Positions 582 to 45,235 of a DNA stretch of 64,000 bases are shown one piece after another; position 1 is the stretch's first letter, and each line of letters starts with the position of its first letter. A program made the position numbers and the translations under genes. A model generated the notes under the pieces. The model ran no database searches, was not told the DNA's origin, and worked only from the letters and a program-made list of their open reading frames with translations. Source of the stretch: Halomicrobium zhouii (GTDB taxonomy: Archaea; Halobacteriota; Halobacteria; Halobacteriales; Haloarculaceae). The stretch spans positions 1 through 64,000 of the forward strand of contig NZ_FOZK01000006.1 of assembly GCF_900114435.1 (NCBI RefSeq). The letters are read 5' to 3'.

Positions 582-657
582 GCCAAGGTGGCAGAGTCCG
601 GCCGAACGCAGCGGCCTGCAGAGCCGCCCATCGCCGGTTCAAATCCGGCCCTTGGCT
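582..657 (+). tRNA. tRNA-Cys (anticodon GCA)
   Basis: A full cloverleaf can be drawn. The acceptor stem GCCAAGG (582-588) pairs with CCTTGGC (650-656). The anticodon stem GCGGC pairs with GCCGC around the loop CTGCAGA, giving anticodon GCA. The T-arm is CCGGTTCAAATCCGG. The base after the acceptor stem is T (657), the U73 discriminator expected of tRNA-Cys. The CCA is not encoded. The position downstream of 5S rRNA is the usual one in haloarchaea. Confidence 0.95.
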
Positions 658-693
658 TCCTGCGACGAACGAACACGAGGAGCGGCAGCCACG
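634..693 (+). repeat. Direct repeat copy 1: tRNA-Cys 3' end plus flank
   Basis: These 60 bases start in the T-arm of tRNA-Cys and run 36 bases past its end. They recur at 731-790 with a single mismatch (C686 versus A783). A duplicated tRNA 3' end is what a tRNA-targeting integrase leaves behind, so this copy would be one attachment-site half. Confidence 0.85.
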
Positions 694-730
694 CCGGTTT
701 GAACCCTGGGACGAGCGAAGCGAAGTCCCT

Positions 731-790
731 CCGGTTCAAATCCGGCCCTTGGCTTCCTGCGACGAACGAACACGAGGAGCGGAAGCCACG
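731..790 (+). repeat. Direct repeat copy 2: displaced tRNA-Cys 3' end
   Basis: This is the second copy of the 60-base repeat, 97 bp downstream of the first. It contains the 3' half of the T-arm and acceptor stem of tRNA-Cys but no 5' part, so it is not a tRNA gene. Between the copies lies an inverted T-arm-like piece (CCGGTTTGAACC, about 694-705) and a small hairpin, GGGAC...GTCCC (about 708-730). Confidence 0.85.
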
Positions 791-2155: not shown

Positions 2156-2914
2156 ATGTCACACGGTGCGCCACCGCTGAAGACGATCCAACGAGCGTTC
2201 GAGATACTCGAACTGTTACGCGAGGGGAAGTCGGTCGGCGTCGCGGAGCTCGCACGGCGGATGGACCTCCCCAAGAGCACCGTTCACGATTACCTGCGGT
2301 CGCTCAATACGATGGGCTACGTCGTCAACGAGGGACAGGAGTACACGCTCAGCTTCCGCCTCCTGGAACTGGGTGGGCAGGTGAAATACAGCAATCGCCT
2401 GTTCCACGTCGCCAAGCCGGAACTGGACCGGCTCGTCGAGGTGACTGGGGAGCTGGCGAGCGTGAACGTCGAGGAGCGGGGGCACTTCGTCATCCTTCAC
2501 GCCAAGTACGGGGACGAGTCGCTGCAGCTCGGTATCTATCCGGGGATGACGATCCCGATACACACCCACGCTGCGGGGAAGGTCATGCTGGCTGGCTTTC
2601 CCGACGAGAAGGTCGACCGCATCCTCGACGAACACGGGCTCGAACAGCGGACAGAACATACGATCACCGACCGCGACGAACTCGCGGCCGAACTGGACGC
2701 TATCGGTGAACGTGGGTATGGCGTGGACTGGAACGAGCAGATCGTCGGTATGGGCGTCGTCGCAGCGCCCGTCGAAATCGACGGTCGCGTGATCGGCGCT
2801 ATCGGACTCGTCTGTCCGACCGACCGTCTCGACGACGTCGATTACCGGGCGGAACTCGTCCAGGAGGTGAAGAAGTCCGCCAATATCATCTCCGTCAACT
2901 ACCAGTACTCGTAG
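2156..2914 (+). CDS. IclR-family transcriptional regulator
   Basis: A 252-residue protein of normal IclR length. Residues about 8-65 form the winged helix-turn-helix (IQRAFEILELLREG, then LARRMDLPKSTVHDYLRSL and a wing GYVV). Residues about 75-250 are the effector-binding domain, with the family-typical IHTHAAGKVMLA segment and the GYGVDWNEQIVGMGVVAAPV stretch. IclR proteins usually control nearby catabolic genes and sense small aromatic or organic acids. It stands just upstream of, and in the same direction as, the Liv-type importer and the CoA/gentisate genes, so it is the obvious candidate regulator of the island. The ligand cannot be read from sequence. Confidence 0.9.
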   Translation: MSHGAPPLKTIQRAFEILELLREGKSVGVAELARRMDLPKSTVHDYLRSLNTMGYVVNEGQEYTLSFRLLELGGQVKYSNRLFHVAKPELDRLVEVTGELASVNVEERGHFVILHAKYGDESLQLGIYPGMTIPIHTHAAGKVMLAGFPDEKVDRILDEHGLEQRTEHTITDRDELAAELDAIGERGYGVDWNEQIVGMGVVAAPVEIDGRVIGAIGLVCPTDRLDDVDYRAELVQEVKKSANIISVNYQYS

Positions 2915-3066
2915 AGCGGTGACGCATCGACGACGGGTGTTTGCGACCGTGGGCGTCGTTTCAGGTGGTACGGTGGGTCAGGGTCTGCAATGCGCTCGTA
3001 GCGATACCTGACGGTGGATTCGGACCTGTCGGTGTCCGGTGGGAACGTCCGAGCTACCGCCTTCCG

Positions 3067-3077
3067 AAAAGTATATC
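3067..3077 (+). promoter_or_regulatory. Promoter of the Liv-type transporter operon
   Basis: AAAAGTATATC, preceded by a CCG-rich BRE-like stretch, ends about 25 nt before the ATG at 3102. The spacing fits leaderless transcription and supports choosing 3102 over the in-frame start at 3039, which lies upstream of this element. Confidence 0.6.
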
Positions 3078-3101
3078 ATTCCCGATCACAATTCTCGTGC
3101 C

Positions 3102-4403
3102 ATGCCACGAACTACCAGGCGAGAGATACTCAAACGTGTTGGCGCAACGTCCGGTCTCGGTAGCGTTATGATCGCGGGATGTAGTAGCGACTCCGACGAT
3201 GCGGGCGGCCAACAGACCACTGGTGGGGACACGACCGACGCCGGTACCGCGGGTAGCAGTGGTCCCGACGAACTCCACATCGGCGTCTTCGCGCCCTATA
3301 CGGGACCGTTCGCCCCGTGGGGGAGTGCGCTAACGACCGGGTCGGAACTCGCGAAACAGGACCTCGAGGCGGAGTTCGACGTCTCGATAACCCTGAGCGA
3401 GTACGACACCGAGACGAACCCCAGCGCGGCCCAGGAACGGATCCAGCGGGCCGTCACCTCGGACGGGATCGACATGGCTCACGGCGGTATCTCGTCGGCA
3501 GTCTGTGGGTCCATCGGATCGTGGGCCTCGGACAACGGCGTCCCGTTCATCACACAGGGCGCTTCGGACACGCTCACCGGGGAGAGTTGCCAGCCGTACA
3601 TGTTCAGGGCGTACCCGTCGAACACGATGATGGCCCGGGCCGTCGGCCAGCCGATGGCCGAGGAGGCAGACAGCTGGTACCTCCTGTACACGGACTACGT
3701 CTGGGGCCAGACCGCCCAGGAGATCATCGGAAGCGTTCTCGAGGAGAACGGTGCGACGGTCGCCGGCACGGACGCGGTTCCCGGCCCGGGTAATCAGGAC
3801 TTCACGCAGTACATCAACAACGTGGAGAACTCCGACGCGGACGGCGTGGCCATGATCATTCCCGGCCTCGACGCTCGTGCGGCCGCGAGCCAGCTCCAGA
3901 ACCGCGGCCTCCACGAGGCGTTGTCCGTGATGTTCCACCAGTTCGAGGACCAGGTCATGTGGGGCCTCAACCAGGAGGCCGCCTCGATGGTCGATCTGGG
4001 CCCGACGGGCTGGATCAACACCGTCGAGGGCGGCGAGGACTTCAAACAGCGCGTCGACGAGCAGGGGGAGACGGATCCGTTCTCGCGACAGTACATGGCG
4101 TACGTATCCACGGACCAGGCCGTCCGCGCGGCGATGCGCGCCGGCAGTGCGAACGGGGACGACGTTCGGGCGGCGCTCGAGGGCCACGAGATAACCGACA
4201 GTCCCGTCAACGATATCGTGCCGAACTCGACCCTCAAATGGCGCGCGTGCGACCACCAGCTCGTCCAGCCGACCCACGTCGTGCAGGCCCGCGACGCGAG
4301 CGAGATGACGAACGACCCGTACAAGCAGTGGTTCGAGGTTTCGAAGACCGTTGCTGGCGACCAGGTCGCCAGGAGCTGCGAAGAAACCGGCTGTAGCTTC
4401 TAA
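3102..4403 (+). CDS. livJ: Branched-chain-type ABC transporter substrate-binding lipoprotein
   Basis: A 433-residue LivJ-like (type I periplasmic-binding fold) protein. The N-terminus carries a twin-arginine signal (TTRREILKR), a short hydrophobic stretch and a lipobox ending IAGC, so it should be Tat-exported and lipid-anchored outside the membrane. A Thr/Gly/Asp-rich linker precedes a domain beginning LHIGVFAPYTGPFAPWG, typical of the family. It is the first gene of a five-gene importer operon, and the permease gene starts 4 bp after its stop. LivJ-like proteins in catabolic islands often bind aromatic acids rather than amino acids. The neighbourhood here suggests an aromatic or phenylpropanoid acid, which is inference. 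Confidence 0.88.
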   Translation: MPRTTRREILKRVGATSGLGSVMIAGCSSDSDDAGGQQTTGGDTTDAGTAGSSGPDELHIGVFAPYTGPFAPWGSALTTGSELAKQDLEAEFDVSITLSEYDTETNPSAAQERIQRAVTSDGIDMAHGGISSAVCGSIGSWASDNGVPFITQGASDTLTGESCQPYMFRAYPSNTMMARAVGQPMAEEADSWYLLYTDYVWGQTAQEIIGSVLEENGATVAGTDAVPGPGNQDFTQYINNVENSDADGVAMIIPGLDARAAASQLQNRGLHEALSVMFHQFEDQVMWGLNQEAASMVDLGPTGWINTVEGGEDFKQRVDEQGETDPFSRQYMAYVSTDQAVRAAMRAGSANGDDVRAALEGHEITDSPVNDIVPNSTLKWRACDHQLVQPTHVVQARDASEMTNDPYKQWFEVSKTVAGDQVARSCEETGCSF

Positions 4404-4407
4404 CTCC

Positions 4408-5436
4408 ATGGACGGAATCGGTATTCAGACGGTAGACCGGGATGCACTGCCCATCTCCCCGGGGGAACTAGTGACATCGTTGGTGCTGTTTGTCTTGCTC
4501 GCGCACGCGTTCGCCGTGCGACCGGGACTGTTCGTCGACCAGCTCGTCGGCGGGCTCGTGTACGGACTGATCCTGGTGCTGGTCGCCCTCGGCCTCTCGA
4601 TCATCCTCGGGCTCCTCGGGGTCGTCAACTTCGCTCACGGCGCCTTCTTCATGATGGGGGCGTACCTGACGTTTCAGGTGCTGAACGTGTGGGGACTGCC
4701 GTTCTGGGCGACGCTGTTCGTCGTGCCGGTGGTGGTCGGCCTCGTCGGCATCGTGATCGAACGGGGTGTTCTCCAGTTCGTCTACGACGAGGACCCGCTC
4801 ATCGGATTGCTGGCGACGTTCGGCATCGCCCTGATGATCGACGAGGCGACCCGTGCCATCTGGGGTGGGAGTCCACTGAGCGTCACGACGCCACAGATAC
4901 TCGACAGCAGTATCGGTATTGGTGTCACGACGATCGCCAGGATGCGGCTGTTCTCCGTCCTCGTGAGCGTCGTCGTCATCGTCGCCGTCTACCTGCTGAT
5001 CGAGCGGACCGACTTCGGACTCTCTGTCCGGGCGGGTGTGCTCGACCGCGAGATGGCCGAGTTCGTCGGCGTGAACATCCCCCTCCGCTTCGTCGTGATG
5101 TTCTTCATCGGGGCCGCCATCGCCGGCCTCGGTGGCGTCCTTCGGGGGGCCGAACTGGGGATGGACCTCGGGATGGGCAACCAGTTCATCATCCTCGCGT
5201 TCGTCGTCGTCGTCGTCGGTGGCGTCGGGAGCCTCTTCGGTAGCGTCGTCTCCGGTATCCTCATCGGTGAAGCGACGTTCCTGACGCCACTCGTCCTGCG
5301 AACGCTCTCGGAGACGACGAACGTCGAGGCCCTCAACGTCTCCGGCATCGGCGGGCTCATGCCCTTCCTCGTGATGATCGTCGTGTTACTCGTCCGACCG
5401 CGTGGACTGTTCGGACAGGAGGGGTTCATGGAATGA
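4408..5436 (+). CDS. livH: Branched-chain-type ABC transporter permease LivH
   Basis: A 342-residue integral membrane protein with about eight hydrophobic segments and the LivH signature LGLLGVVNFAHGAFFMMGAY near residues 60-85. The start at 4408 (MDGIGIQTVDR) is 4 bp past the stop of the binding-protein gene. A longer in-frame start inside that gene is unlikely. The C-terminus (VRPRGLFGQEGFME) is typical of LivH, and its stop overlaps the start of the next gene by four bases (ATGA), implying translational coupling with LivM. Confidence 0.9.
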   Translation: MDGIGIQTVDRDALPISPGELVTSLVLFVLLAHAFAVRPGLFVDQLVGGLVYGLILVLVALGLSIILGLLGVVNFAHGAFFMMGAYLTFQVLNVWGLPFWATLFVVPVVVGLVGIVIERGVLQFVYDEDPLIGLLATFGIALMIDEATRAIWGGSPLSVTTPQILDSSIGIGVTTIARMRLFSVLVSVVVIVAVYLLIERTDFGLSVRAGVLDREMAEFVGVNIPLRFVVMFFIGAAIAGLGGVLRGAELGMDLGMGNQFIILAFVVVVVGGVGSLFGSVVSGILIGEATFLTPLVLRTLSETTNVEALNVSGIGGLMPFLVMIVVLLVRPRGLFGQEGFME

Positions 5437-6548
5437 GCGGCGACACCTCGCAGACCGAACCTACCCAGCGATTGCCCGACTCACTGACCGACGGAAGATT
5501 CGAACAGTGGCGGGTCCCGCTCGGCTTGCTCGCCCTCGTCGTCTTGCTGCGTCCGGTCATCGGCCACGAGTTCCTGCTCAACTATCCACCGTTCGCGAAC
5601 ACCATCCTCGTCTGGATGTTGTTCGCCGCGTCGTTCAACGTCCTCCTGGGGTACACCGGCCTGCTGTCGTTCGGCCACGGCATGTTCCTCGGATTCGGGG
5701 CGTACGGTGCCGCGATCGGGTTGACGCGGTTCGACCTCCCGTTCACCGTCTCCGCCGTGATCGGACTCGCCGTCGCGGCCGTGGTCGCCTACCTCATCGG
5801 GCGGATCATCGCCCAGCGGGGCGAGATATACTTCGCGATGCTGACGCTCGCGTTCGCCAAGGCCGCTCACTTCATCGCGAACCAGAACTACGGCGGCCTC
5901 ACGGGCGGTTCGACGGGCATCGTCGGGGTGCTCCCGTCCTGGATAGAGACCCAGCGCGGGGTGAAGTACGTCGCCACCGGAGGGTTCCAGTTCGACTGGT
6001 ACTACCTCCTCGGGACGGTTTTCGTCCTCGCCACGCTGGCGCTCTGGCAGATCGCACGGTCGCCGTTCGGTCGCTCGCTCGTCGCCGTCCGCGAGAACGA
6101 GGAACTGGCCCGTGCAGTCGGGATCGACGACACGCGGTACAAGATCTGGTCGTTCACGTTTAGCGGCGTGTTTGCGGCACTGGCCGGCGTCCTGTACGCG
6201 ATCAACAATCAGGGTTCCTCGCTGTCGACACTCACGGTCGAAACGAGCGGCGACATCATCCTGATGACGATCCTCGGTGGGGCGAACTACTTCTTCGGCC
6301 CGCTGGCCGGCGTGTTCGTCTGGCTGTTCTCCGAGGAGTTCCTCATCGAGTTCGAGACGCTGGTGCTGCCGCTCGCGGAGTACCCGCTCGTCACCATCGA
6401 ACTCGGCGGCCTGCTGTCGTACTGGCAGTTCTTCCTCGGGCTCCTGTTCGTCATCTCCGTGCTCGTCGCGCCACGGGAGGGCCTGTGGGGCCTGTTCAGG
6501 AGCGGGATCGGTGGACTGTACGACCGCGTCAGGGGTGGTCGTGAATGA
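5433..6548 (+). CDS. livM: Branched-chain-type ABC transporter permease LivM
   Basis: A 371-residue membrane protein with eight to ten hydrophobic segments and the LivM hallmark NVLLGYTGLLSFGHGMFLG at about residues 70-90. It also has the family motif SPFGRSLVAVRENEELARAVG, a cytoplasmic loop thought to contact the ATPases. It pairs with LivH as the heterodimeric channel. Both its ends overlap the neighbouring genes by four bases, so the operon is tightly coupled. Confidence 0.9.
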   Translation: MSGDTSQTEPTQRLPDSLTDGRFEQWRVPLGLLALVVLLRPVIGHEFLLNYPPFANTILVWMLFAASFNVLLGYTGLLSFGHGMFLGFGAYGAAIGLTRFDLPFTVSAVIGLAVAAVVAYLIGRIIAQRGEIYFAMLTLAFAKAAHFIANQNYGGLTGGSTGIVGVLPSWIETQRGVKYVATGGFQFDWYYLLGTVFVLATLALWQIARSPFGRSLVAVRENEELARAVGIDDTRYKIWSFTFSGVFAALAGVLYAINNQGSSLSTLTVETSGDIILMTILGGANYFFGPLAGVFVWLFSEEFLIEFETLVLPLAEYPLVTIELGGLLSYWQFFLGLLFVISVLVAPREGLWGLFRSGIGGLYDRVRGGRE

Positions 6549-7336
6549 GTGACACTGCGAGGACCGCCCGGTCCGCCGACGTCGTGCTAGAGACCGAAGG
6601 ACTGACCAAGCAGTTCGGCGGCCTGACGGCGCTCGAACACGTCGACCTGGCCGTCGAACGGGGCGAACTTCACGCCATCATCGGTCCGAACGGCGCCGGA
6701 AAGACCACGCTGTTCAACACCATCACCGGTGCGCTCGAGCCGACGGCGGGAACCGTCTGGTTCGACGGCGAGGACGTGACGGAGATGGCACAGGAGAAGC
6801 GTCCCCACCGCGGCCTCGCGCGGTCGTTCCAGTCGAACCAGCTGTTCGCGGACCTCAGTGTGCTCGAGAACGTCCGAATCGTCGTTCAGACGGCTCGTTC
6901 CGGACGTTTCGGGCTCGACCTGCTCGGGAACGGGCGGGCGAAGTACCGCGAACAGGCGTTCGAGTACCTCGAGCGGGTCGGGCTCGACGGAGTGCACACC
7001 GCGCTGGCCAAGAACCTCTCGCACGGGGATCAGCGCCGACTCGGCATCGCCATCTCGCTGGCGACGGACCCGTCGGTGCTCCTCCTCGACGAGCCTACCA
7101 GCGGCATGGGCCCGACAGAGACCCAGGAGACGGCGGAGATGATCGACGAACTGCGACAGGACCTCGACCTCACGGTCCTCCTGATCGAACACGACATGGA
7201 CATCGTGCTCTCGATGAGTGACCGCATCACCGTTCTCAACCAGGGAGAGGTCCTCGCCACGGACAGTCCCGGGGCGGTCCAGGAGAACGAAGACGTCCAG
7301 AACGCGTATCTCGGCGGCATGCGGGAGGAACTATGA
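6545..7336 (+). CDS. livG: Branched-chain-type ABC transporter ATPase LivG
   Basis: A 263-residue ABC ATPase. Walker A is GPNGAGKTT (about residues 40-48), the Q-loop lies in RSFQSNQLF, the signature is LSHGDQRRLGIA (a LivG-type variant of LSGGQ), Walker B is VLLLDEPTSGM, and the switch His is in LLIEHDMD. The family-specific YLGG near the C-terminus is present. It overlaps LivM and LivF by four bases each. Confidence 0.92.
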   Translation: MSDTARTARSADVVLETEGLTKQFGGLTALEHVDLAVERGELHAIIGPNGAGKTTLFNTITGALEPTAGTVWFDGEDVTEMAQEKRPHRGLARSFQSNQLFADLSVLENVRIVVQTARSGRFGLDLLGNGRAKYREQAFEYLERVGLDGVHTALAKNLSHGDQRRLGIAISLATDPSVLLLDEPTSGMGPTETQETAEMIDELRQDLDLTVLLIEHDMDIVLSMSDRITVLNQGEVLATDSPGAVQENEDVQNAYLGGMREEL

Positions 7337-8040
7337 CACTACTGGAGATCGACGGAGTCGAGGCGGGATACGAGACGGGACAGGTACTGTTCGGCGTCGA
7401 CATCGACGTGGAGCGCGACGAAGTCGTCTCGCTGCTCGGCCGGAACGGCGCCGGGAAGACGACCACCATGCGCGCCGTCGTCGGTGCGGACGTCCCGAAC
7501 GTCCGCAGTGGTTCGATCACGTTCGATGGGCACGACCTCCTGGCGACGCCGAACTATCAGATCCCGCGGCTCGGACTCACCATCGTTCCCGAGGGTCGAC
7601 GGTGCTTCGAGGACCTCACCATCGAGGAGAACATCCGACTCGGGGCGAACCACGTCGACGACCCGCTCCCGATGGCGTCCGTCTTCGACCAGTTCCCGGA
7701 ACTCGACGAGATGCGGGACCGGCCCGCGCGGAACCTGAGTGGCGGTGAGAAACAGATGCTCGCCATCGCTCGCAGCCTCGTGGCGAATCCGCAGATGATA
7801 CTGCTCGACGAGCCCTGCGAGGGACTCGCCCCGTACATCGTCCGGCGTATCGAATCGATAATCGAGGAGATCAGCCAGGAGCGCAACGTCACCGTGTTGC
7901 TGGTCGAACAGAACGTCGCCGTGGCGCTCGCGGTCGCGGACCGTCACTACATCCTCGACGAAGGTCGGATCGTCGAGGTCGTCTCGACGGAACGACTTCG
8001 CGAGGACGAGACGTTGCGACAGGAGTACCTCGGTGTGTGA
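7333..8040 (+). CDS. livF: Branched-chain-type ABC transporter ATPase LivF
   Basis: A 235-residue ABC ATPase. It has Walker A GRNGAGKTTT, the LivF-typical GLTIVPEGRRCFEDLTIEEN, signature LSGGEKQMLAIARSL, Walker B MILLDEPCEGLAP and a C-terminal EYLGV. It completes the five-gene importer (binding protein, two permeases, two ATPases). About 150 bp containing a new promoter separate it from the next gene, so the importer is probably its own transcription unit. Confidence 0.92.
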   Translation: MTLLEIDGVEAGYETGQVLFGVDIDVERDEVVSLLGRNGAGKTTTMRAVVGADVPNVRSGSITFDGHDLLATPNYQIPRLGLTIVPEGRRCFEDLTIEENIRLGANHVDDPLPMASVFDQFPELDEMRDRPARNLSGGEKQMLAIARSLVANPQMILLDEPCEGLAPYIVRRIESIIEEISQERNVTVLLVEQNVAVALAVADRHYILDEGRIVEVVSTERLREDETLRQEYLGV

Positions 8041-8156
8041 CGTCTGACCTGGGATCCGTGACGATCCCTCGCTGACCAGTTTCGCCCGGCTCACCCGGCG
8101 CGTCGCCGCATAGCCGTCGGTACGCCGCCCCTTGTTCCTTGGTAACATACCGCCAG

Positions 8157-8164
8157 ATTAAATA
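8157..8164 (+). promoter_or_regulatory. TATA box of the dehydrogenase/hydratase gene
   Basis: ATTAAATA lies 25 nt upstream of the ATG at 8189, in otherwise G+C-rich DNA. The spacing fits a leaderless mRNA. Confidence 0.6.
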
Positions 8165-8188
8165 CGGCCGACGGATACGTATCGATCG

Positions 8189-10135
8189 ATGGATATCGAA
8201 ATCGACAGTCTCGCGGTCCTCGGAGCCGGCAGTATGGGTCACGGCATCGCGGAAGTTGCCGCCATGGCCGGCTACGACGTCGTCCTCCGCGACGTCGAGG
8301 ACGACCTCGTACAAGACGGGTACGACCAGATAGAGTGGAGCCTCGACAAACTCGCCGAGAAGGGACAGCTCGACGCCGACCCGGAGGACGTGCTCGGACG
8401 CGTCTCGACGGCCGTCGAACTGGAGGCGGCCGTCGCCGACGCCGACCTCGTCATCGAGGCCGCACCGGAAGACCTCGACCTGAAACAGTCCGTCTTCGCC
8501 GAAGTCGACGAGGCCGCGCCCGACGACGCCATCATCGCGACGAACACGTCGAGTCTCCGAATCGGCGACATCGCGGCGGCGACGGACCGGCCCGAGCGGT
8601 GCTGCGGGATGCACTTTTTTAACCCACCGGTGAAGATGGACCTCGTCGAGGTCGTCGGCGGCGAAGCGACGGCGGACGACGTCGTCGACGCGGCCTACGA
8701 GTTCGTCGAGTCGCTGGACAAGACGCCGATCCGCGTCCGCAAGGACGTCCCGCAGTTCGTCGTCAACAACGTACTGACGCCGTACATGGGCGAGGCCGGC
8801 TTCATGCTCGACGAGGGCGCAGACGACGTTCGGGCGGTCGACGCGGCGATGGTGTTCCGGCGCGGCTACCCGATGGGCCCCTTCGAACTCAACGACTTCG
8901 GCGGGCTCGACGTGTTCGCCCACACGCGAGAGCAGTGGGACGACCCGGTCCCCGAGTCGATCAGCTCCCGGGTCGAGGCCGGTGACGTCGGGCGGAAGGC
9001 CGGCGCGGGCTTCTACGAGTACGAGGACGGTCCCGGTGCGGACTACGAACCGACGCAGGGCGACGGCGTCGACACGCTCCGCATCGAGGCGCGGATGATA
9101 AACGAGGCGGCGCGGCTCGTCGGCCAGGACGTCGCGACGCCGGAAGACATCGACGTCGGCATGCGCCTCGGGGGCGGCCTCCCCGAGGGGACGTGCCGGA
9201 CCGCGGACAAGCTCGGCCTCGACGTCGCCCTCGACAAGCTCAGGGAACTCCACGACGCCACGGGCGCCGAACGGTACGAGCCGGCCGACTATCTCGTCGA
9301 GCGCGTCGAATCGGGCCACACCGGCGAGGCGGCGGGACGGGGGTTCTACGACTATCGCGACGGCGGCCCGTACCACTACGTCAGCCACGAACTCACCGAC
9401 GACGGCGTACTCTCGGTCGTCTTCGACCGCGAGGAGCGGCTCAACGCCTTCTCGACGGACATGTTCGACGAGGTCCAGCGCCTCCTCGAGACCGTCGACC
9501 AGGACGACGTCGCCTGCGTCGTCTTCGAGGGCGCCGGCGACCGAGCGTTCAGCGCGGGCGCGGACATCACCGGCTTCACGACGGCCGATCCGACGGACCT
9601 GATGCACGTCGACGAATCCATCGAGACAGTGTACGAGTTCCCACGACCGACGGTCGCCAAGATTGACGGCTTCTGCCTCGGGGCTGGCCTCGAACTGACG
9701 CTGGCCTGTGACATCCGCATCGCTGCCGAGGGGTCCACCCTCGGCAGCCCGGAGGTCGACCTCGGCCTCATCCCCGGCGGCGGCGGGACCCAGCGGCTGG
9801 TTCGCCTGGTCGGCGAACCGCGCGCGAAGGAACTGGTCTTCCGCGGGATGCACATCTCCGCCGAACAGGCGGCCGACTGGGGCATCCTCAACCGGGCCGT
9901 CCCGGACGAGGAGTTCGAGGCAGCAGTCGACGAGGTGGTCTCGGACCTGGTCGATGGACCTCGAACCGCCCTCGAAGTCGCCAAACAGGTCATCAACGAG
10001 GGACAGAACGCGAGCCTGGAGACCGCCCTCTCCCTGGAGAGCCAGGGCTTCGGCCTGCTGACCACGACCGACGACATGCTAGAGGGCGTCGCCGCGTTCA
10101 ACGACGACCGCGAACCGGAGTTCAGCGATGACTGA
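8189..10135 (+). CDS. 3-hydroxyacyl-CoA dehydrogenase / enoyl-CoA hydratase fusion
   Basis: A 648-residue bifunctional beta-oxidation enzyme. Residues 1-185 are the NAD-binding domain (VLGAGSMGHGIAEVAAMAGY, then MHFFNPPVKMDLVEVV with the catalytic His). Residues about 187-390 are two 3HCDH C-terminal domains. Residues about 400-648 are a crotonase domain. Both hydratase glutamates are present: E502 in GAGLE and E522 in GSPEVDLG, 20 residues apart as in crotonase, followed by PGGGGTQRL. It would hydrate an enoyl-CoA and oxidise the 3-hydroxyacyl-CoA. The order (dehydrogenase first) is the common haloarchaeal one. In this island the likely substrate is a cinnamoyl-type CoA, which is inference. 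Confidence 0.93.
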   Translation: MDIEIDSLAVLGAGSMGHGIAEVAAMAGYDVVLRDVEDDLVQDGYDQIEWSLDKLAEKGQLDADPEDVLGRVSTAVELEAAVADADLVIEAAPEDLDLKQSVFAEVDEAAPDDAIIATNTSSLRIGDIAAATDRPERCCGMHFFNPPVKMDLVEVVGGEATADDVVDAAYEFVESLDKTPIRVRKDVPQFVVNNVLTPYMGEAGFMLDEGADDVRAVDAAMVFRRGYPMGPFELNDFGGLDVFAHTREQWDDPVPESISSRVEAGDVGRKAGAGFYEYEDGPGADYEPTQGDGVDTLRIEARMINEAARLVGQDVATPEDIDVGMRLGGGLPEGTCRTADKLGLDVALDKLRELHDATGAERYEPADYLVERVESGHTGEAAGRGFYDYRDGGPYHYVSHELTDDGVLSVVFDREERLNAFSTDMFDEVQRLLETVDQDDVACVVFEGAGDRAFSAGADITGFTTADPTDLMHVDESIETVYEFPRPTVAKIDGFCLGAGLELTLACDIRIAAEGSTLGSPEVDLGLIPGGGGTQRLVRLVGEPRAKELVFRGMHISAEQAADWGILNRAVPDEEFEAAVDEVVSDLVDGPRTALEVAKQVINEGQNASLETALSLESQGFGLLTTTDDMLEGVAAFNDDREPEFSDD

Positions 10136-10190
10136 CCGCGACCACGAAAATTCAAGACGGTGTGGTCCGTGTGCGCAAGTGTCTGAACCC

Positions 10191-10247
10191 ATGTCTGAAC
10201 GAGGAACGGACGGTGGCCGTCCCGAACGCGAGGCGATCTCCTCGTGA
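10191..10247 (+). CDS. Possible 18-codon leader ORF before the thiolase gene
   Basis: An ATG at 10191 opens an 18-codon frame (MSERGTDGGRPEREAISS). Its TGA overlaps the GTG start of the thiolase gene as GTGA. A TATA-like AAAATTCAAG at about 10147-10156 lies 35-44 nt upstream, so a transcript would begin just before this ATG. It could be a leader peptide that couples translation to the thiolase, or simply 5' leader sequence. There is no independent evidence that it is translated. Confidence 0.3.
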   Translation: MSERGTDGGRPEREAISS

Positions 10248-11434
10248 CGCGGACCGTCGGCATCGTCGGTGGCGGACACACTCGCTGGGGAGACCGCGAG
10301 GCGACCTACAAGGACCTCATCCAGGAGGCCGGCAAGGCGACGTTCGACGACGTCTCCGGCGTGAGTCCCGGGGACATCGAGGGGCTGTTCGTCGGCTCGG
10401 TGCAGCCCGAACGGTTCGCCTTCCAGACCCACGTCGCGCCCATGGTCGCCGAACTGCTCGGCATCGCGCCCGACAGCATGATCGCCCGGACGGAACTGGC
10501 CTGTGCCAGCGGCCAGGCGGCACTCCGGTACGCGTGGCTCGCTATCGCGGCCGGCCAGCTGGACACTGCGCTCGTCCTCGGCGTCGAGAAGATGAACCTG
10601 CCGGACGAACACGCCGCCGAGGCCCAGTCCGGGATGACGAACGTCATGGACCGCGAGTTCGACGGCGTCAACGGCCTCAACGCGCCCCCGTACTTCGCGA
10701 TGGTCGCCCAGCGACACATGCACGAGTACGGGACGACGCGCGAACAGCTCGCGCAGGTCAGCGCGAAGAACAAGAGCCACGCGGCCCACAACGAGTTCGC
10801 GCAGTTCCAGGACGAAGTCTCCGTCGACGAGGTGATCGACTCGTTCCCGCTGTCTCCGCCGCTGTGTCTCTACGACTGTAGCGGTATCACCGACGGGGCT
10901 GCCGGGCTCATCCTCATGAGCGAGGAGAAGGCCCGCGAGGTGACCGACGAAGCGGCGTGGATAACCGGCAGTGGACAGGCGTGTTTCGCCAGCAACTCCG
11001 TCAACAACCTCCCGTCGATGTCCGCGTGGCCGCAGGCGACGACGGCGGCCGAGCAGGCCTACGACCAGGCGGGTATCGACGACCCGGTGGCGGAACTCGA
11101 CGTGGCCGAAGTCCACGACTGCTTCTCGATCAGCGAGATCGTCGAGTACGAGGATCTGGGCTGGGTCGAGAAGGGCGAGGGCGGCCAGTTCGTCGAGGAC
11201 GGTCGAAGCGCCCTCGACGGCGACATCGCCGTCAATCCGCGCGGTGGGTTGCTGGGCTGTGGCCACCCGCTCGGGGCCACGGGCGTCTCCCAGGCGCTGG
11301 AGATCTACAACCAGTTCAGGGGTGACGTTCCCGCCGAACGGCGCGTCCCCGACCCGGAGACCGGGCTGATACACAATCTCAGCGGGAGCGCCTCCGTCCA
11401 CAGCGTCATGACCATGGCGCGTGGTCGACCATGA
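10244..11434 (+). CDS. Thiolase-family protein (SCP-x type)
   Basis: A 396-residue thiolase-fold protein with a GTG start. The nucleophilic Cys87 lies in ELACASGQAAL, the usual position. C-terminal motifs include VHDCFSISEI and a GCGHPLGATG loop. This subgroup works with a DUF35 zinc-ribbon/OB-fold partner, and such a gene follows with a four-base overlap. Expected reaction: cleavage of a 3-oxoacyl-CoA to acetyl-CoA and a shortened acyl-CoA (benzoyl-type if the substrate is phenylpropanoid). Members of the wider group can act as retro-aldolases, but the adjacent hydroxyacyl-CoA dehydrogenase argues for true thiolysis. Confidence 0.85.
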   Translation: MTRTVGIVGGGHTRWGDREATYKDLIQEAGKATFDDVSGVSPGDIEGLFVGSVQPERFAFQTHVAPMVAELLGIAPDSMIARTELACASGQAALRYAWLAIAAGQLDTALVLGVEKMNLPDEHAAEAQSGMTNVMDREFDGVNGLNAPPYFAMVAQRHMHEYGTTREQLAQVSAKNKSHAAHNEFAQFQDEVSVDEVIDSFPLSPPLCLYDCSGITDGAAGLILMSEEKAREVTDEAAWITGSGQACFASNSVNNLPSMSAWPQATTAAEQAYDQAGIDDPVAELDVAEVHDCFSISEIVEYEDLGWVEKGEGGQFVEDGRSALDGDIAVNPRGGLLGCGHPLGATGVSQALEIYNQFRGDVPAERRVPDPETGLIHNLSGSASVHSVMTMARGRP

Positions 11435-11901
11435 GCGACGACCGCGACGCGGTCGAGCTTCCGGACACCATCGAGCTCCCGCGGTTGCTCGACTTCTACG
11501 AGCTCCAGACGGCCGAGCACACCGGTATTCACGAGTTCTACGAGCGCCTCCGTGAGGGACAGCTCTCGACGACGCGGTGTTCGGACTGCGGCGACGTCCA
11601 GTTCCCCCCACGCATCGTCTGCCCGGAGTGCCACTCCGACGACCTCGAGTACGTCGACCTGCCGCACGAGGGCGAACTGTTCGCGTTCTCGATGGTCCGG
11701 GCGGGCGCGCCGCTTGGCATGGAAGACGAGGTTCCGTTCGTGACCGGCATCGTCGAGGTCGGGGACGTCCGCCTGTCGGCGCGCATCGACGGGGCCGACT
11801 ACGACGACCTCGCCATCGGCGACCCCGTCGAACTGAACGTCGTCGAGATAGACGGTCCCGCCGACCACGAACGCGTCTTCTACCGATTCGAACCGAGGTG
11901 A
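11431..11901 (+). CDS. Zn-ribbon/OB-fold (DUF35) thiolase partner
   Basis: A 156-residue protein with an N-terminal helix region, a rubredoxin-like zinc ribbon (C50, C53, C64, C67 in CSDCGD...CPECHS) and a C-terminal OB-fold. DUF35 proteins bind SCP-x-type thiolases and can bridge CoA intermediates between enzymes. It overlaps the thiolase stop by four bases, and the acyl-CoA ligase gene starts 6 bp after it. Confidence 0.88.
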   Translation: MSDDRDAVELPDTIELPRLLDFYELQTAEHTGIHEFYERLREGQLSTTRCSDCGDVQFPPRIVCPECHSDDLEYVDLPHEGELFAFSMVRAGAPLGMEDEVPFVTGIVEVGDVRLSARIDGADYDDLAIGDPVELNVVEIDGPADHERVFYRFEPR

Positions 11902-11907
11902 CTACAC

Positions 11908-13533
11908 GTGCAAGATTACGAGCTTACCATCACGAAGTTCCTGCAACGCGCGGTCGAGCTCTTCGACCACAAGGAGATCGTCACGAAACTACCGGACGGA
12001 ACGCTGCACCGGTACACGTACGGGGAGGCGTACGAACGGATCTGTCGACTCGCCCACGCACTCGACGACTTCGGCCTCGACCAGGGTGAGCGAGTGTCGG
12101 TGATGGCCGTCAACCACTTCCGCCACTACGAACTGTACTTCGGCCCCTCCTGCAGCGGCCGCAGCATCCACACGACGAACCACCGGCTCCCGAAGCACCA
12201 CCTCACGCAGATGATCAACGAGGCCGAGGACCGGCTGTTGTTCGTCGACCCGGCGTTCGTCGAGACCGTCGAGGCCATCGCGGACGACCTCGAGACGGTC
12301 GAGCAGTACGTCGTCCTGGCCGACGAGGTGCCCCAGACCGACCTGGAACCGGTCGTCGACTACGAGTCGTTCATCGAGGGATACGAGACCGAGTACGACT
12401 GGCCCCGACTCGACGAGAACACGGAGTTCGCGCTCTGTTACACGTCCGGGACGACTGGCATGCCGAAGGGCGTGCAGTACTACCACCGGCGGATGTTCCT
12501 GCACACGCTGGTCCACGGCCACGTCGACGTGTTCGGCGTCGGGGAGAACGACGCGGTGATGCCCGTCGTCCCGATGTTCCACGTCAACGGGTGGGGCTTC
12601 CCCTACACGGCCACCTTCTACGGGTCGAAACTGGTCCTTCCCGGCCAGCACACCGACCCGCCCGGCGTCGCGGACCTCATTCACGAGGCGGGCGTGACCG
12701 TCGCTGCCGCCGTGCCGACGGTGTGGATCGAGATGGACTCGTATCTCGAATCGAACGACGACGTGACCCTCGAGAGCCTCGACCGCGTGCTTACCGGCGG
12801 GAGCGCCCCGCCGGCCTCGCTCATGCAGAAGTTCGAGGAAGTGTACGAGGCACCGATCTACCAGGGATACGGGATGACGGAAGCCTCGCCGCACCTCGTC
12901 AACACGTTCGAGACGACCGAGACGCGGGACCTTCCACAGGACGAGCACTACGAACTCATGCGCAAGGCCGGTATCCCGGCACCGGGCGCCCGGATCCGTC
13001 TCCGGAATCTGGACGGCGAAGCCGTCCCCCACGACGGTGAGTCGAAAGGAGAGATACAGGCCCGCTCGCCGTGGCTCACCGACGGGTACTTCAAGCGGCC
13101 CGACGCGAACGAGCACTCGTTCACGGAGGACGGCTGGTTCAGGACGGGCGACATCGCCACCATCGACGAGTACGGCTACCTCGACGTCGTCGATCGACTG
13201 GACGACGCCATCAAGAGCGGGGGCGAGTGGATCTCCTCCGTCGAACTGGAGAACTCGCTCATCGACGCCAGTGGCGTGGCCGAGGCGGCAGTCATCAGCG
13301 TTCCCCACGAGAAGTGGCAGGAACGACCGGTCGCGTTCGTCGTCACCGACGATGCCACCGTCGACGAGGCGTCGCTCCGTGACCACCTGCTGTCGAAATT
13401 CCCGAAGTGGTGGCTCCCGGACCAGTTCCGGTTCATCGACGAGATTCCGAAGACGACGACCCACAAGTTCGACAAGAAGACGCTCCGGGACCAGTTCCTC
13501 GACGAGCACGGGGAACTTCCCCACGACGCCTGA
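11908..13533 (+). CDS. Acyl/aryl-CoA ligase (AMP-forming)
   Basis: A 541-residue adenylate-forming ligase with a GTG start. Motifs: P-loop CYTSGTTGMPKGV at about 178-190, GYGMTEASP, GWFRTGDIA, and a C-terminal lysine segment (IPKTTTHKFDKK) for the thioester step. Length and motifs match medium/long-chain fatty-acid or aryl-acid CoA ligases. It is co-transcribed with thiolase and DUF35, so it probably activates the acid imported by the Liv system. Acid specificity cannot be read from sequence, but a phenylpropanoid acid fits the context. Confidence 0.9.
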   Translation: MQDYELTITKFLQRAVELFDHKEIVTKLPDGTLHRYTYGEAYERICRLAHALDDFGLDQGERVSVMAVNHFRHYELYFGPSCSGRSIHTTNHRLPKHHLTQMINEAEDRLLFVDPAFVETVEAIADDLETVEQYVVLADEVPQTDLEPVVDYESFIEGYETEYDWPRLDENTEFALCYTSGTTGMPKGVQYYHRRMFLHTLVHGHVDVFGVGENDAVMPVVPMFHVNGWGFPYTATFYGSKLVLPGQHTDPPGVADLIHEAGVTVAAAVPTVWIEMDSYLESNDDVTLESLDRVLTGGSAPPASLMQKFEEVYEAPIYQGYGMTEASPHLVNTFETTETRDLPQDEHYELMRKAGIPAPGARIRLRNLDGEAVPHDGESKGEIQARSPWLTDGYFKRPDANEHSFTEDGWFRTGDIATIDEYGYLDVVDRLDDAIKSGGEWISSVELENSLIDASGVAEAAVISVPHEKWQERPVAFVVTDDATVDEASLRDHLLSKFPKWWLPDQFRFIDEIPKTTTHKFDKKTLRDQFLDEHGELPHDA

Positions 13534-13610
13534 ACGCGCGTTCGGCGTCGGGTCGAACGGCGGTCGAAACTGCAACTGAACACTCCCGGCCCTGCCTATT
13601 CGAGACAACG

Positions 13611-14756
13611 ATGGAACTACTGGAACCGTCCGTGATACCGGCGGAGGCACAGGCACCGAAACAGCGCGCCCGTTCGTTCGCACGTGATCACGTCGCACCC
13701 GTCGCTGGCGAGTACTTCGCGTCGGGTGAGTACCCCATGGACGTGGTCCGTGCCGCGAGAGCAGAGGGGCTGGTCGCACAGGAGATTGACGCCGCGTACG
13801 GTGGCCACGGTCGGTCGCTGGCCCAGGTCGTCGCGACCATCGAGGAGTTCTTCCGGGCCGATGCGGGTATCGGCCTCGCGCTCGTCGGACAGAGTTTCGG
13901 GACGCGCGTCCTCCAGGCGTTCGGCACGGAGCGACAGAAAGAGACGTACCTCCGGCCCGTGGCCGAGGGCGAGCAGATCACGGGCATGGCGATAACGGAA
14001 CCCGAGACCGGCAGCGATCTGGCGGGGATGGAGACGAGCGCGCGGCTGGAGGGTGAGGAGTGGGTCATCGACGGCGAGAAGTACTGGATCGGCAACGGCG
14101 TCGAGGCGGACTGGATAACCGTCTACGTCCGTACGGACGACACCGAGGACCGACACGGGAACCACTCGCTGTTGATCGTCCCGACCGACAGCGACGGGTA
14201 TCACGCCGAACACGTGCCGGAGAAGATCGGAATGCGCGCCTCCGAACAGGCCCACATCACGTTCGACGAGTGCCGGGTCCCCGCCGAGAATCGCATCGGC
14301 GAGCGCGGTGCGGGGTTCAGGATGCTCGCCGAGTTCTTCGACCACGGGCGCGTCCGCGTCGCGGGTCACGGGATCGGACTCGCCGCCGCCGCCATCGAGG
14401 AGGCCTGGGACTTCGTCCACGATCGCGAGGAGTTCGGTCGCTCCGTCGCCGACTTCCAGTCGGTCCAGCACGACCTGGCGGACCTGCGGATAGAGTTCGA
14501 GAGCGCGCGGTCGTTACTCTGGCGGACCATCGAACGGATCGAGGCCGGTGAAGACGCCACGCTCTGGGCGTCGATGGCCAAGACGAAGGCGACCGAAGTC
14601 GCCGCCGACTGTGCGGAAACGGCGATGCAGCTCCACGGCGGTCGGGGGATACTCGACCAGGAGCGGGTCGCTCGCGTGTACCGGGACGTCCGCATGCCGA
14701 TGACCTACGAAGGCGTGAGCGCCGTGCAGCGCGACATCATCTACCGAAACTTCTGA
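13611..14756 (+). CDS. Acyl-CoA dehydrogenase
   Basis: A 381-residue flavoprotein of normal family length. It has ITGMAITEPETGSDLAG (FAD/substrate loop), the dimer-interface region RVRVAGHGIGLA and the catalytic-base context MPMTYEGVSAVQRD, in which Glu takes the usual position before Gly. The start at 13611 gives a standard N-terminus. A longer frame upstream translates into arginine-rich nonsense. It oxidises acyl-CoA to enoyl-CoA and would convert a phenylpropionyl-CoA to a cinnamoyl-CoA in the proposed pathway. Confidence 0.92.
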   Translation: MELLEPSVIPAEAQAPKQRARSFARDHVAPVAGEYFASGEYPMDVVRAARAEGLVAQEIDAAYGGHGRSLAQVVATIEEFFRADAGIGLALVGQSFGTRVLQAFGTERQKETYLRPVAEGEQITGMAITEPETGSDLAGMETSARLEGEEWVIDGEKYWIGNGVEADWITVYVRTDDTEDRHGNHSLLIVPTDSDGYHAEHVPEKIGMRASEQAHITFDECRVPAENRIGERGAGFRMLAEFFDHGRVRVAGHGIGLAAAAIEEAWDFVHDREEFGRSVADFQSVQHDLADLRIEFESARSLLWRTIERIEAGEDATLWASMAKTKATEVAADCAETAMQLHGGRGILDQERVARVYRDVRMPMTYEGVSAVQRDIIYRNF

Positions 14757-14923
14757 TGGGTAGTCGAACCGGTCTGTCGGGTCGACTGCCACGGCGTCCA
14801 GACTCCCGGTGCCGGTGCCGGTGTCGATCCCGTCCAGAGGGCCTCCGCGACGGGAGCGGTGGTGTGTGGCGGCGTGCCACGCCAATCGGTGTCGTTTTAC
14901 TGCCCGTACGCCAGTGATCTGGT

Positions 14924-15364
14924 ATGCGATTCTACGAGGACATCGAGGTCGGCGAGACCGACCGGGTGGGGGAGTACCAGGTCACGAAGGAGGAGATCGT
15001 CGAGTTCGCGGAGAAGTACGATCCACAGCCGTTCCACACCGACGAGGAGGCGGCCCAACGGTCCATCTTCGGTGAGCTCGTGGCGTCGGGCTGGCATACA
15101 GGGGCCATCTGTATGCGGTTGACCGTCGAACGGCAGCGAGATATCGCCACGCTCGCCGGCATCGGCGTCGACAATCTCCGCTGGCACGCGCCCCTGACTC
15201 CCGGGGACGAACTCCACCTCGAAACGGAAGTCGTGGACAAGCGGCCGTCCGACCGGCGAGACGACCGGGGATACGTCACCACCCGCGTCGAGGGGTGGAC
15301 CGGATCCGGGGAGATGATCATCTCTTTCGAGGGGATCGCCCTCGTCGAACGGCGCGACGATTAA
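14924..15364 (+). CDS. MaoC-family (R)-hydratase-like protein
   Basis: A 146-residue single hotdog-fold protein. The hydratase motif is seen as YDPQPFHTDEEAA, with the catalytic Asp and His five residues apart. It is followed by the MaoC-typical IFGELVASGWHTGAICMRL and LRWHAPLTPGDEL. It would hydrate an enoyl-CoA to an (R)-3-hydroxyacyl-CoA, possibly in parallel to the crotonase domain encoded at 8189. A TATA-like CGTTTTACTG lies about 30 nt before the ATG, so it has its own promoter. Confidence 0.88.
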   Translation: MRFYEDIEVGETDRVGEYQVTKEEIVEFAEKYDPQPFHTDEEAAQRSIFGELVASGWHTGAICMRLTVERQRDIATLAGIGVDNLRWHAPLTPGDELHLETEVVDKRPSDRRDDRGYVTTRVEGWTGSGEMIISFEGIALVERRDD

Positions 15365-43733: not shown

Positions 43734-43828
43734 CGGCCTCGTTTTCGGACACGACACGGGCCGAAACTGCCGTTCTCGACGCCCGCCGTCGCCTGGTCTT
43801 TATGCCCGCTGCCATCGTACCAGCGAGA

Positions 43829-44588
43829 ATGAACGAATCGTCTCCCGCGACCGTCGAGGCCGACGAGAGTGTCATCGCACCGGGCGTCTCTCGCTTCGGC
43901 ACGAAGCGTGTCAACTGGTACCTCGTCGAGGGCGACGACGGCGTCCTCGTCGTCGACGCGGGCGTCCCCGGTCCACTGGCCGCAACTGCTCTCGGGACTC
44001 GCCGACCGAGGGTACGGTCTCGACGACGTGGCAGCGCTGGTCCTCACCCACGGCCACGCCGACCACGTCGGCTTCGCCGAACGCCTGCGCGAGACCACCA
44101 GCGTTCCAGTGTTCGTCCACGAGGCCGACGTCGGGCTTGCGCAGGGGACCGAGGACGTCTCTGTGGGCGACGCGCTCGTGAATCTCTGGCGACCGGCCGT
44201 GCTGGCGCTCCTGTTCGAACTCGGTCGCAACGGCGGGCTGTCCATCCCGCCGGTCGAGGAGGTCCAGACGTTCGCGGACGGCGACGTCCTCGACCTGCCC
44301 GGGTCGCCGGAAATGATCCACGTCCCGGGGCACTCCGCCGGTTCGTGCGCCCTCTTCCTGCCCGACCGCGACGTCCTCCTCTGTGGCGACGCGCTCGCCA
44401 CGCTCGACCTGACGACCGGCCGCGAGCGCGGCCCCCAGATCATGTCGCTGTTCAACGCCGACGGAGCGCGTGCTCGCGCCTCACTCGACCGACTTGCCGG
44501 TCTCGGCGAAGTGACGCTGCTGCCCGGCCACGGCCGCCCCTGGCGTGGTGAGATGGACGAGGCGGTTCGGCTGGCGCGGAGGCAGTGA
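43829..44588 (+). pseudogene. MBL-fold hydrolase gene with a frameshift
   Basis: The N-terminal part (MNESSPATVEADESV..., NWYLVEGDDGVLVVDAGVPG) reads in one frame from ATG 43829. The rest (HWPQLLSGLADRGYGLDD, LVLTHGHADHVGF with the zinc-binding HxHxDH, then HVPGHSAGSCALFLPD and LLPGHGRPW) reads in the next frame. Removing one base of the CC at 43973-43974 restores a continuous metallo-beta-lactamase protein of about 253 residues. The downstream part shows no further damage, so this is a very recent mutation, a sequencing error, or less likely a programmed shift. Confidence 0.8.
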
Positions 44589-44625
44589 CGAGTTTTGCGA
44601 CGAGCAAACCGCGAGTCGCAAAAAC

Positions 44626-45093
44626 ACGGGCCGAGAGGGAGTGAGCGAACGCGTAGCGTTCGCGAACGTCGATGGGCTCGCGGAGCGAGCCCATCGGAAG
44701 TTGAACCGAGTGGAGACGTTCCTGCTCACTTCGTTGCGCGGGCTGCGACTCCCCGGGTTCAACTCCCTCTTTGGCGTTTCCACTGCTCACTGTCGTTCGC
44801 AGGGAAACGGGCCGAGAGGGAGTTGAACCACGCAAAGACGGTCACCTCGCTTCGCTCGGTGCTGCGTCTTTTCTACTTCAACTCCTCCGGCCGGTTCACT
44901 CACCGCGTCGCTAGCGCTCTGCGGTTCGTTGCACGGGCCGAGAGGGAGTTGAACCGAAGGAAGACCGTCCGGGCGTGCGACCTCGCTGGCGCTCGGCCGT
45001 TCCGGGCTGGGACTTCCAGGGTTCAACTCCCTCTATGGCGTTTCCACTGCTCACTGTCGTTCGCAGGGAAACGGGCCGAGAGGGAGTTGAACC
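44626..45093 (+). repeat. Array of tRNA-Lys 3'-end copies
   Basis: The sequence ACGGGCCGAGAGGGAG, the antisense of the tRNA-Lys 3' end, occurs at 44626, 44807, 44933 and, within the tRNA itself, at 45071. The last three copies extend to ACGGGCCGAGAGGGAGTTGAACC (given here only to show the shared T-arm). A 74-bp segment (44756-44829) recurs at 45020-45093 with one mismatch. It begins with an inverted T-arm (GGTTCAACTCCCTCT) and ends with a direct one, forming a 15-bp inverted repeat around a loop of about 44 bases. Two perfect hairpins (about 44643-44661 and 44671-44695) lie between the first two copies. No protein gene is evident. Confidence 0.85.
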
Positions 45094-45183
45094 CCCGACC
45101 GTCTGGTCACTCCCGCAACCACGCGGATCGAACCCGTGGCCACGTTAAAAGCCAGACGCTCTGCCGAACTGAGCTATCGGCCC
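45072..45183 (-). tRNA. tRNA-Lys (anticodon UUU) with intron
   Basis: On the minus strand the acceptor stem GGGCCGA (45183-45177) pairs with TCGGCCC (45079-45073), followed by discriminator G. The D-arm is TAGCTCAGTTCGGCAGAG. The anticodon stem GTCTGG/CCAGAC encloses the loop C-T-TTT-A-A after a 38-nt intron (45108-45145) is removed at the canonical 37/38 position. The T-arm is GGGGGTTCAACTCCC. The intron holds a CCACG/CGTGG helix, consistent with a bulge-helix-bulge splice site. The intron boundaries could shift by one base because A37 and A38 are identical. Confidence 0.92.
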
Positions 45184-45235
45184 TCGATACAAGTTCGGGG
45201 CAGACGACGCTAAGAGCTTACGGTTACGGACGCGG

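Follow-up and report, generated by a model that had tools for sequence, protein, structure and literature searches.

Palindromic units ending in tRNA 3′-end copies behind the tRNA-Lys gene of Halomicrobium zhouii and other haloarchaeal tRNA genes

tRNA genes are classic landing sites of mobile DNA. Elements moved by tyrosine recombinases duplicate part of the tRNA 3′ end and leave the tRNA whole, as is also true of the array described here, but they are kilobase-sized and carry genes and an integrase, whereas the units of the array (about 100-230 nt) are too small for this. Another arrangement is found in the tyrT region of Escherichia coli K-12 (locus L304), where tRNA-Tyr is followed by 178-bp units whose last 19 nt repeat the 3′ end of the tRNA exactly. 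Three units were each seen to have, further upstream, a T-arm stretch in reverse complement with 2 mismatches in 12; one of them was folded, and there this inverted stretch pairs with the copy and closes a hairpin. Rfam marks four RtT units (RF00391) in the region, and RtT matches occur in 4680 of 5426 E. coli genomes, at 1 to 9 places per matching genome (median 2). To our knowledge rtT has been known from tRNA-Tyr only, as a single-locus curiosity. The haloarchaeal array likewise consists of tandem units that end in a tRNA 3′-end copy, with an inverted T-arm closing a hairpin. It differs in that the E. coli copy includes CCA whereas the haloarchaeal copy ends at the discriminator, and in that the haloarchaeal family serves many tRNAs and shuffles its modules. 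The RtT model gave no gathering-score match in the window (by which we mean the whole 64,000-nucleotide stretch of H. zhouii DNA analysed) and none at E≤5 in 44400-45200; across 20 haloarchaeal genomes there were no matches above the cut-off and five weak ones at E≤1. Since the anatomy is alike and the sequence unrelated, we regard the haloarchaeal family as a variant on rtT that falls outside RF00391.

Integron cassette arrays are also built of folded, imperfect-hairpin units that stand in one orientation and are shuffled. The tRNA units, however, are too short for gene cargo, and none was seen in them. The PATE and SMR elements of Haloquadratum are described as short, palindromic and without a transposase, SMR-A inserting into palindromes, mainly within PATEs and IS605-type elements (PMC3119063). 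In the passages of that paper devoted to them they are reported without target duplication and no link to tRNA ends is drawn, whereas the tRNA units go with a sharp-edged repeat of 21-22 nt. Casposons and CRISPR arrays share leader-proximal insertion with target duplication, and a casposase is reported to read the T-loop-like motif TCAAATC next to a gene for tRNA-Pro, producing duplications of 14-15 bp (PMC6614799). In 17 of 28 array-rich haloarchaeal genomes, however, no Cas1 turned up. For arrays at haloarchaeal tRNA ends, we found no description in the open-access literature.

The tRNA-Lys array

The array follows a tRNA-Lys gene (Table 1) and, read along the minus strand, runs tRNA-Lys-[A-I-B-D]x3 and then ends in a last spacer hairpin, A4. 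In each unit A is a spacer hairpin, I an inverted copy of the T-arm (the T-loop and part of the T-stem), B a further hairpin and D a repeat of the 3′ end of the tRNA; both A and B are palindromic. The block repeated in the downstream copies is the last 22 nt of tRNA-Lys (45072-45093). The tRNA-Lys(UUU) gene contains a 38-nt intron at about 45106-45143 on the minus strand, as judged against 74-nt intronless orthologues, and it is probably because of this intron that ARAGORN missed the gene. tRNA-Lys introns of the same or similar length are also present in genomes G006, G026, G023 and G020; G004 and several other genomes have none. A tRNA-Cys gene of the window is followed by a unit of its own.

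Table 1. Coordinates of the tRNA genes, array parts and integrative element. Positions refer to the window unless a locus is named; R1 is the covariance model of I-B-D.
Feature	Coordinates	Strand	Remarks
tRNA-Lys gene, anticodon TTT	45072..45183	-	Rfam RF00005, 56.2 bits; letters checked
A1, T-rich spacer hairpin, unit 1	45033..45071	-	
I1, inverted T-arm copy	45022..45032	-	
B1, conserved hairpin body, unit 1	44956..45021	-	R1 match 44943-45032, 80.7 bits (training-set unit)
D1, copy of tRNA-Lys 3′ end	44934..44955	-	exact, 22/22
A2, spacer hairpin, unit 2	44888..44933	-	
I2, inverted T-arm copy	44877..44887	-	
B2, hairpin body, unit 2	44830..44876	-	GTAGA class; R1 match 44817-44887, 65.5 bits (training-set unit)
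D2, copy of tRNA-Lys 3′ end	44808..44829	-	exact, 22/22
A3, spacer hairpin, unit 3	44769..44807	-	1 mismatch vs A1
I3, inverted T-arm copy	44758..44768	-	
B3, hairpin body, unit 3	44708..44757	-	R1 match 44695-44768, 81.6 bits (training-set unit)
D3, first part	44699..44707	-	GGTTCAACT, 9 nt
Double-palindromic insert, 59 nt	44640..44698	-	splits D3 within the T-loop
D3, second part	44627..44639	-	CCCTCTCGGCCCG
A4, terminal spacer hairpin	44589..44626	-	adjoins the stop of the neighbouring MBL-fold gene
tRNA-Cys gene	582..657	+	with its own unit
tRNA-Cys unit	658..754	+	A 658-692, I/B 693-732, D 733-754 (exact 22/22 copy)
Integrative element	L182 about 2117-15266 (C1:120616-133767 of this genome)		encodes a DUF1424 Rep-like protein

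A sequence-only reading of this DNA had placed the antisense tRNA-Lys 3′ end at 44626, 44807, 44933 and, within the tRNA, 45071, and these positions are right; the copy at 44626 is the split one, its first 9 nt lying at 44699-44707. That reading had also described a 74-bp unit, present at 44756-44829 and 45020-45093 with one mismatch and containing both an inverted and a direct T-arm. Exactly one mismatch is indeed found, both copies have the two T-arms, and a 91-bp version is 96% identical; within the A-I-B-D repeat this unit corresponds to the D-A-I part.

A palindromic insert similar to the one in D3, and at the same T-loop position, is seen at three other tRNAs of this genome (C1:1442091, C2:256724 and C2:22902) and at the tRNA-Lys of G006; these inserts, a second kind of palindrome besides the units, read TCCG-hairpin, hairpin, CTCANT. 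Beside the array, the gene for an MBL-fold hydrolase (window 43802-44588, plus strand) is seemingly split over two reading frames and appears to be a pseudogene or to reflect a sequencing error.

The array could consist of scars left by successive large integrative elements or prophages, one form of the repeated integration and excision that the same reading had proposed, given that integrases leave copies of tRNA 3′ ends and that one integrative element is present elsewhere in this genome. This genuine element has a different footprint, however. Inserted in the tRNA at C1:120555, it measures 13,136 bp from repeat to repeat, shares 16 nt between its ends and has a Phage_integrase ORF beside the right one; a unit-like match at C1:133808 (E 0.006) lies just beyond it, so that the element appears to separate this tRNA from its array. 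In the window, by comparison, no integrase domain was found in the six proteins scanned around the tRNA-Lys array, and the units, all of them small hairpins of a single kind, leave no room for genes, are specific to each tRNA and stand behind 32 of 56 tRNA genes. The size and kind of the units, the lack of an integrase among those neighbours and the contrast with the real element rule against prophage scars, an origin to which we give hardly any credence. A short duplication of a tRNA 3′ end near a tRNA gene should not automatically be taken for the att site of a prophage or island.

Occurrence within the genome and across Halobacteria

Of the 53 tRNA genes listed by Rfam, 21 are followed within 500 nt by a copy of their own last 22 nt (≤4 mismatches), as against two that are preceded by one over the same distance. 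No own 3′-end copies appeared in 20 dinucleotide shuffles, which rules out a chance origin. When the 3′ ends of other tRNAs were used as a control (314 pairings, 1200 nt on each side), 14 direct and 2 inverted copies were obtained downstream and 9 upstream. Within 1200 nt the genome has 30 copies, the first standing 75-147 nt behind the tRNA and further ones 102-231 nt apart; 29 of the 30 units measured are 97-173 nt long and one is 231.

The covariance model R1 was built from 22 units of this genome. Scans with it scored first-look candidates, 150 in this genome and, under stricter filters, at most 15 per genome in a class sample and 17 in a phylum sample. In this genome it matched 43 places among the candidates scored (E<0.001), 22 of them being the training units. 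All but one of these (42 of 43, or 20 of the 21 outside the training set) have a same-strand tRNA gene no more than 700 nt before them, when three tRNA genes absent from the Rfam list and described below are included in the count. The sole match for which no preceding tRNA was found, L127 (C2:782854-782943), is a degraded, orphan unit-like stretch. Counting units and copies together, 32 of 56 tRNA genes have one or the other and 24 have neither by the criteria used; these 24 are all among the 53 listed genes. The 56 comprise the 53 found by Rfam and, read by eye, two tRNA-Pro-like genes and one intron-bearing tRNA-Trp-like gene, the last of which was also found in another Rfam run. The two tRNA-Pro-like genes (L013 about 1352-1424, L125 about 2788-2859) were not reported at the Rfam gathering score, and a unit stands behind each. 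A dense cluster of atypical tRNA genes, L081 (C2:252500-259500), is almost array-free and is possibly of viral or plasmid origin.

Beyond this genome, R1 had matches (E≤0.01) in 283 of the 292 genomes that made up the class sample, and none in the other nine. Across the phylum it matched 40 of 246 sampled genomes, all 40 inside the order, of which three members were unmatched; there were no matches in the 203 genomes taken as outside the order (17 listed singly, the place of the other 186 being inferred from the kinship order of the listing). Some half of the tRNA genes in this one genome have an rtT-like anatomy behind them, and its hairpin recurs in nearly every genome sampled from the class; R1 can serve for annotating it. 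When the genome collection was searched with a stringent DNA pattern that describes one class of B, 39 stretches came up, all of them haloarchaeal and from 30 organisms, one of which contributed four. ARAGORN places a same-strand tRNA before 34 of these stretches, no tRNA being found near the other five, and 30 have a copy of that tRNA's own 3′ end. At the 13 tRNA-Lys loci that were read (two of the CTT kind) there are 0 to 4 copies each, and the copies track each species' own tRNA sequence with 0-2 mismatches. An identical array fixed in distant genera, which the sequence-only reading had named as pointing to conserved function or artefact, is found in part: the architecture is common, but number, order and spacing vary. 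An assembly artefact is unlikely because the same arrangement is present in many other genomes.

The distribution also bears on a Cas1-type integrase of the casposon kind, which might insert units at the 3′ end of the tRNA and duplicate the target, much as spacers are added in CRISPR adaptation. The T-loop-like motif and duplication reported in the part of PMC6614799 cited above would agree with this, as would the tRNA-adjacent indels and the exact target repeat of the haloarchaeal arrays. Yet our search found no Cas1 in this genome, and Cas1 was found in 11 of 28 array-rich genomes as against six of nine in which R1 had no match; the haloarchaeal repeat, moreover, includes the T-loop and is 21-22 nt long. 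We consider such an origin very improbable. The Y1 transposase, which palindromic elements of the PATE or IS605-derived kind would call for, was found in 22 of the 28 array-rich and seven of the nine model-negative genomes; it is common but not universal, and speaks neither for nor against such an origin.

Structure of the unit

The edges of D are sharp. When 79 units are compared with their own tRNA, identity rises from 0.34 immediately upstream of D to at least 0.96 over positions 1-21 (G53 to the discriminator) and drops to 0.67 past the discriminator, from where it falls to about 0.5; the identity within D is conditioned on at most two mismatches, the edge values are not. D spans G53/T54 to the discriminator base of the host tRNA, 21-22 nt, and from its sharp edges we take the repeated block to be the stretch from the T-loop to the mature 3′ end. 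What follows is on average T-rich at its start, with a T fraction of 0.40 after the tRNA and 0.45 after D versus a background of 0.18, and each copy is likely accompanied by a putative terminator.

I-B-D forms an imperfect hairpin with covarying stems, in which I pairs with D and is followed by an asymmetric internal loop, a short and freely varying stem and AGTC...GTCT around an apical hairpin. Two-sided changes occur in 11 of 16 pairs in a MAFFT alignment and in 14 of 16 in the model-fitted alignment of 89 distinct rows from outside this genome (91 matches at 72 loci, two of the 91 rows being weak reverse-strand readings of stronger matches). The covariation score is 0.348, compared with 0.120 in shuffles and at most 0.066 with the partners slid. 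Against Rfam 15, the gathering score was reached in the array region by the tRNA alone and all others scored far below, so a known Rfam family for the unit was set aside.

The main rival to an explanation at the level of DNA is a function as RNA. Read-through from the tRNA would yield a trailer RNA whose I-B-D hairpins act in 3′ processing, in termination or as small RNAs, with selection keeping the structure. Strong covariation in a structure that 283 of 292 genomes have would be expected from this, and 42 of 43 places have it in the tRNA sense orientation. The hairpins of the window array, furthermore, have folding energies far under those of shuffles (z -4.3 to -6.7), and the similar unit of E. 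coli has an RNA annotation (RtT, RF00391). RNA stems usually tolerate G-U, and on the model-fitted alignment the outer I-D helix has 44 G-U and 96 unpaired cells out of 709. In the inner stems, however, 645 of 663 cells are Watson-Crick, 16 are unpaired and just 2 are G-U. Stems so nearly free of G-U suggest that a DNA palindrome, as a cruciform or a folded single strand, is what is recognised or maintained; this argument concerns the inner stems as aligned to the model, the outer helix adds nothing to it, and it suggests a likeness to DNA palindromes over RNA without amounting to proof. The T-rich start after the tRNA and after each D further suggests that transcription may end before B is reached. 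In addition, 24 of the 53 listed tRNA genes have no unit or copy by the criteria used, and units vary freely between sister genomes. On balance we hold a function as RNA to be unlikely, if by no means negligible.

Turnover of units and their possible origin

Whole units vary among close relatives without the tRNA being broken. In G006, whose tRNAs are mostly identical to those of this genome, 22 of 51 tRNAs have a copy no farther than 1200 nt away (for two of them a weak and distant one only), and the number, order and module mix of units differ at orthologous tRNA genes. At C3:78046 units 1 and 2 are swapped relative to G006; at C3:615956 one full copy and a disrupted one face five copies in G006, where the order is alpha-beta-alpha-beta-gamma. 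Identical units may also be consecutive, as with two 120-nt copies at C3:278951. The suggestion of an actively amplifying tRNA-derived unit, the other half of the sequence-only reading, is a good fit to these identical neighbours, to the whole-unit differences between sister genomes and to a family that extends through the class.

A second close pair, G001 and G003, has copies at 11 and 16 of 41 tRNAs. Of the 41 pairs, five differ by a whole unit of 105-146 nt that one genome has and the other lacks, and a breakpoint falls between -22 and -16 relative to the tRNA end. Differences between two I sites amount to 125 nt at tRNA-Lys and 105 nt at L272, and other indels of 15-340 nt are also seen in the 41 pairs. 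Thirteen of the pairs align poorly overall (identity 0.49-0.68), including those at L218 and L226, which were nevertheless used since the sequence immediately downstream of the unit does align. With G002 as third genome, 12 of the 41 loci were compared. The unit at L226 is common to G002 and G003 and exactly missing from G001, which looks like a loss; at L218 it is present in G001 and G003 while G002 has a bare tRNA with a trailer that aligns with that of G003, and here too the difference may be a loss. Most of the indels could therefore be deletions.

Modules behave differently within the unit. Among 101 units, 99 had some match, and at a threshold of at least 85% identity over at least 70% of the module, on which these counts depend, the best good match stood behind a different tRNA for B in 26 of 99 and for A in 8 of 99. 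B thus recurs behind different tRNAs, whereas D and I match the local tRNA. In 34 arrays with at least two copies, the proximal copy is better kept than the last in 17, the reverse holds in five and the two are equal in 12. Growth of arrays at the tRNA-proximal end is supported by the five indels at -22 to -16 and weakly by this copy decay. We also considered a shufflon with D and I as inverted sites and rejected it: inversion of B was unseen in this genome, with 42 of 43 matches on the tRNA strand.

Such turnover might be a passive product of replication, one that needs neither an element nor an enzyme of its own. At the T-arm palindrome, template switching would then create the inverted copy and perfect the hairpins, recombination between short repeats would amplify and delete units, and gene conversion would spread B. 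The near-perfect Watson-Crick inner stems, the tandem duplications, exact or nearly so, of single units and of blocks of two, and the indels that end within short T-loop repeats all agree with this, and repeat-mediated deletion in haloarchaea has been published, mostly at repeats under 20 bp (PMC3119063). It does not readily explain the restriction to tRNA 3′ ends and to one orientation, the unpaired features of B that are conserved throughout the class, or the B modules common to different tRNAs. We think this rather improbable as the whole explanation.

The reading that we favour, though we would stop a little short of calling it an even bet, is that the array is a local case of a lineage-wide family of small palindromic DNA cassettes, found almost only behind tRNA genes and inserted with target duplication. 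A new unit would enter at the T-loop and 3′ end of the tRNA, or of a D copy, and duplicate the 21-22-nt target, so that the old 3′ end is pushed downstream as D and the tRNA would keep a complete 3′ end and never be broken. Units would be lost, and A and B reshuffled, through recombination between short T-loop repeats (D-D or I-I), much as in the published haloarchaeal deletions at repeats (PMC3119063). The DNA palindrome would be the form that is recognised or maintained, and the mildest guess at a putative enzyme is a tyrosine recombinase acting on the T-loop. No benefit to the host would be needed, although a dispensable reservoir of tRNA 3′ ends is conceivable.

Several observations weigh against insertion. 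In the genome comparisons no gain of a unit could be polarised; the candidate enzymes searched for (in the six neighbouring proteins, Cas1 and Y1) gave no identification; A is shared between tRNAs much less often than B; and the proximal copy is better kept in just half of the multi-copy arrays. Plain target duplication also leaves the match of I to the local T-stem unexplained, and the class-wide conservation of B structure is equally expected from a function as RNA.

A bolder extension of the cassette reading, which we regard as possible but would not bet on, is that the arrays reflect a new recombination system with the tRNA T-loop as its universal landing site, in which palindromic cassettes, each completed by the 3′ end of its host tRNA, are captured behind tRNA genes, stacked and shuffled between loci in nearly all Halobacteria, E. 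coli rtT being an independent or very distant case. If true, tRNA genes would carry anchored and continually renewed arrays in which structure, not sequence, is the unit of inheritance, and a structure-guided recombination process may be revealed. The origin of tRNA-end repeats becomes directly testable in genetically tractable haloarchaea. In the arrays at L293 and L246 (G002, G003), a MITE-like palindrome of about 80-90 nt was seen within or next to units.
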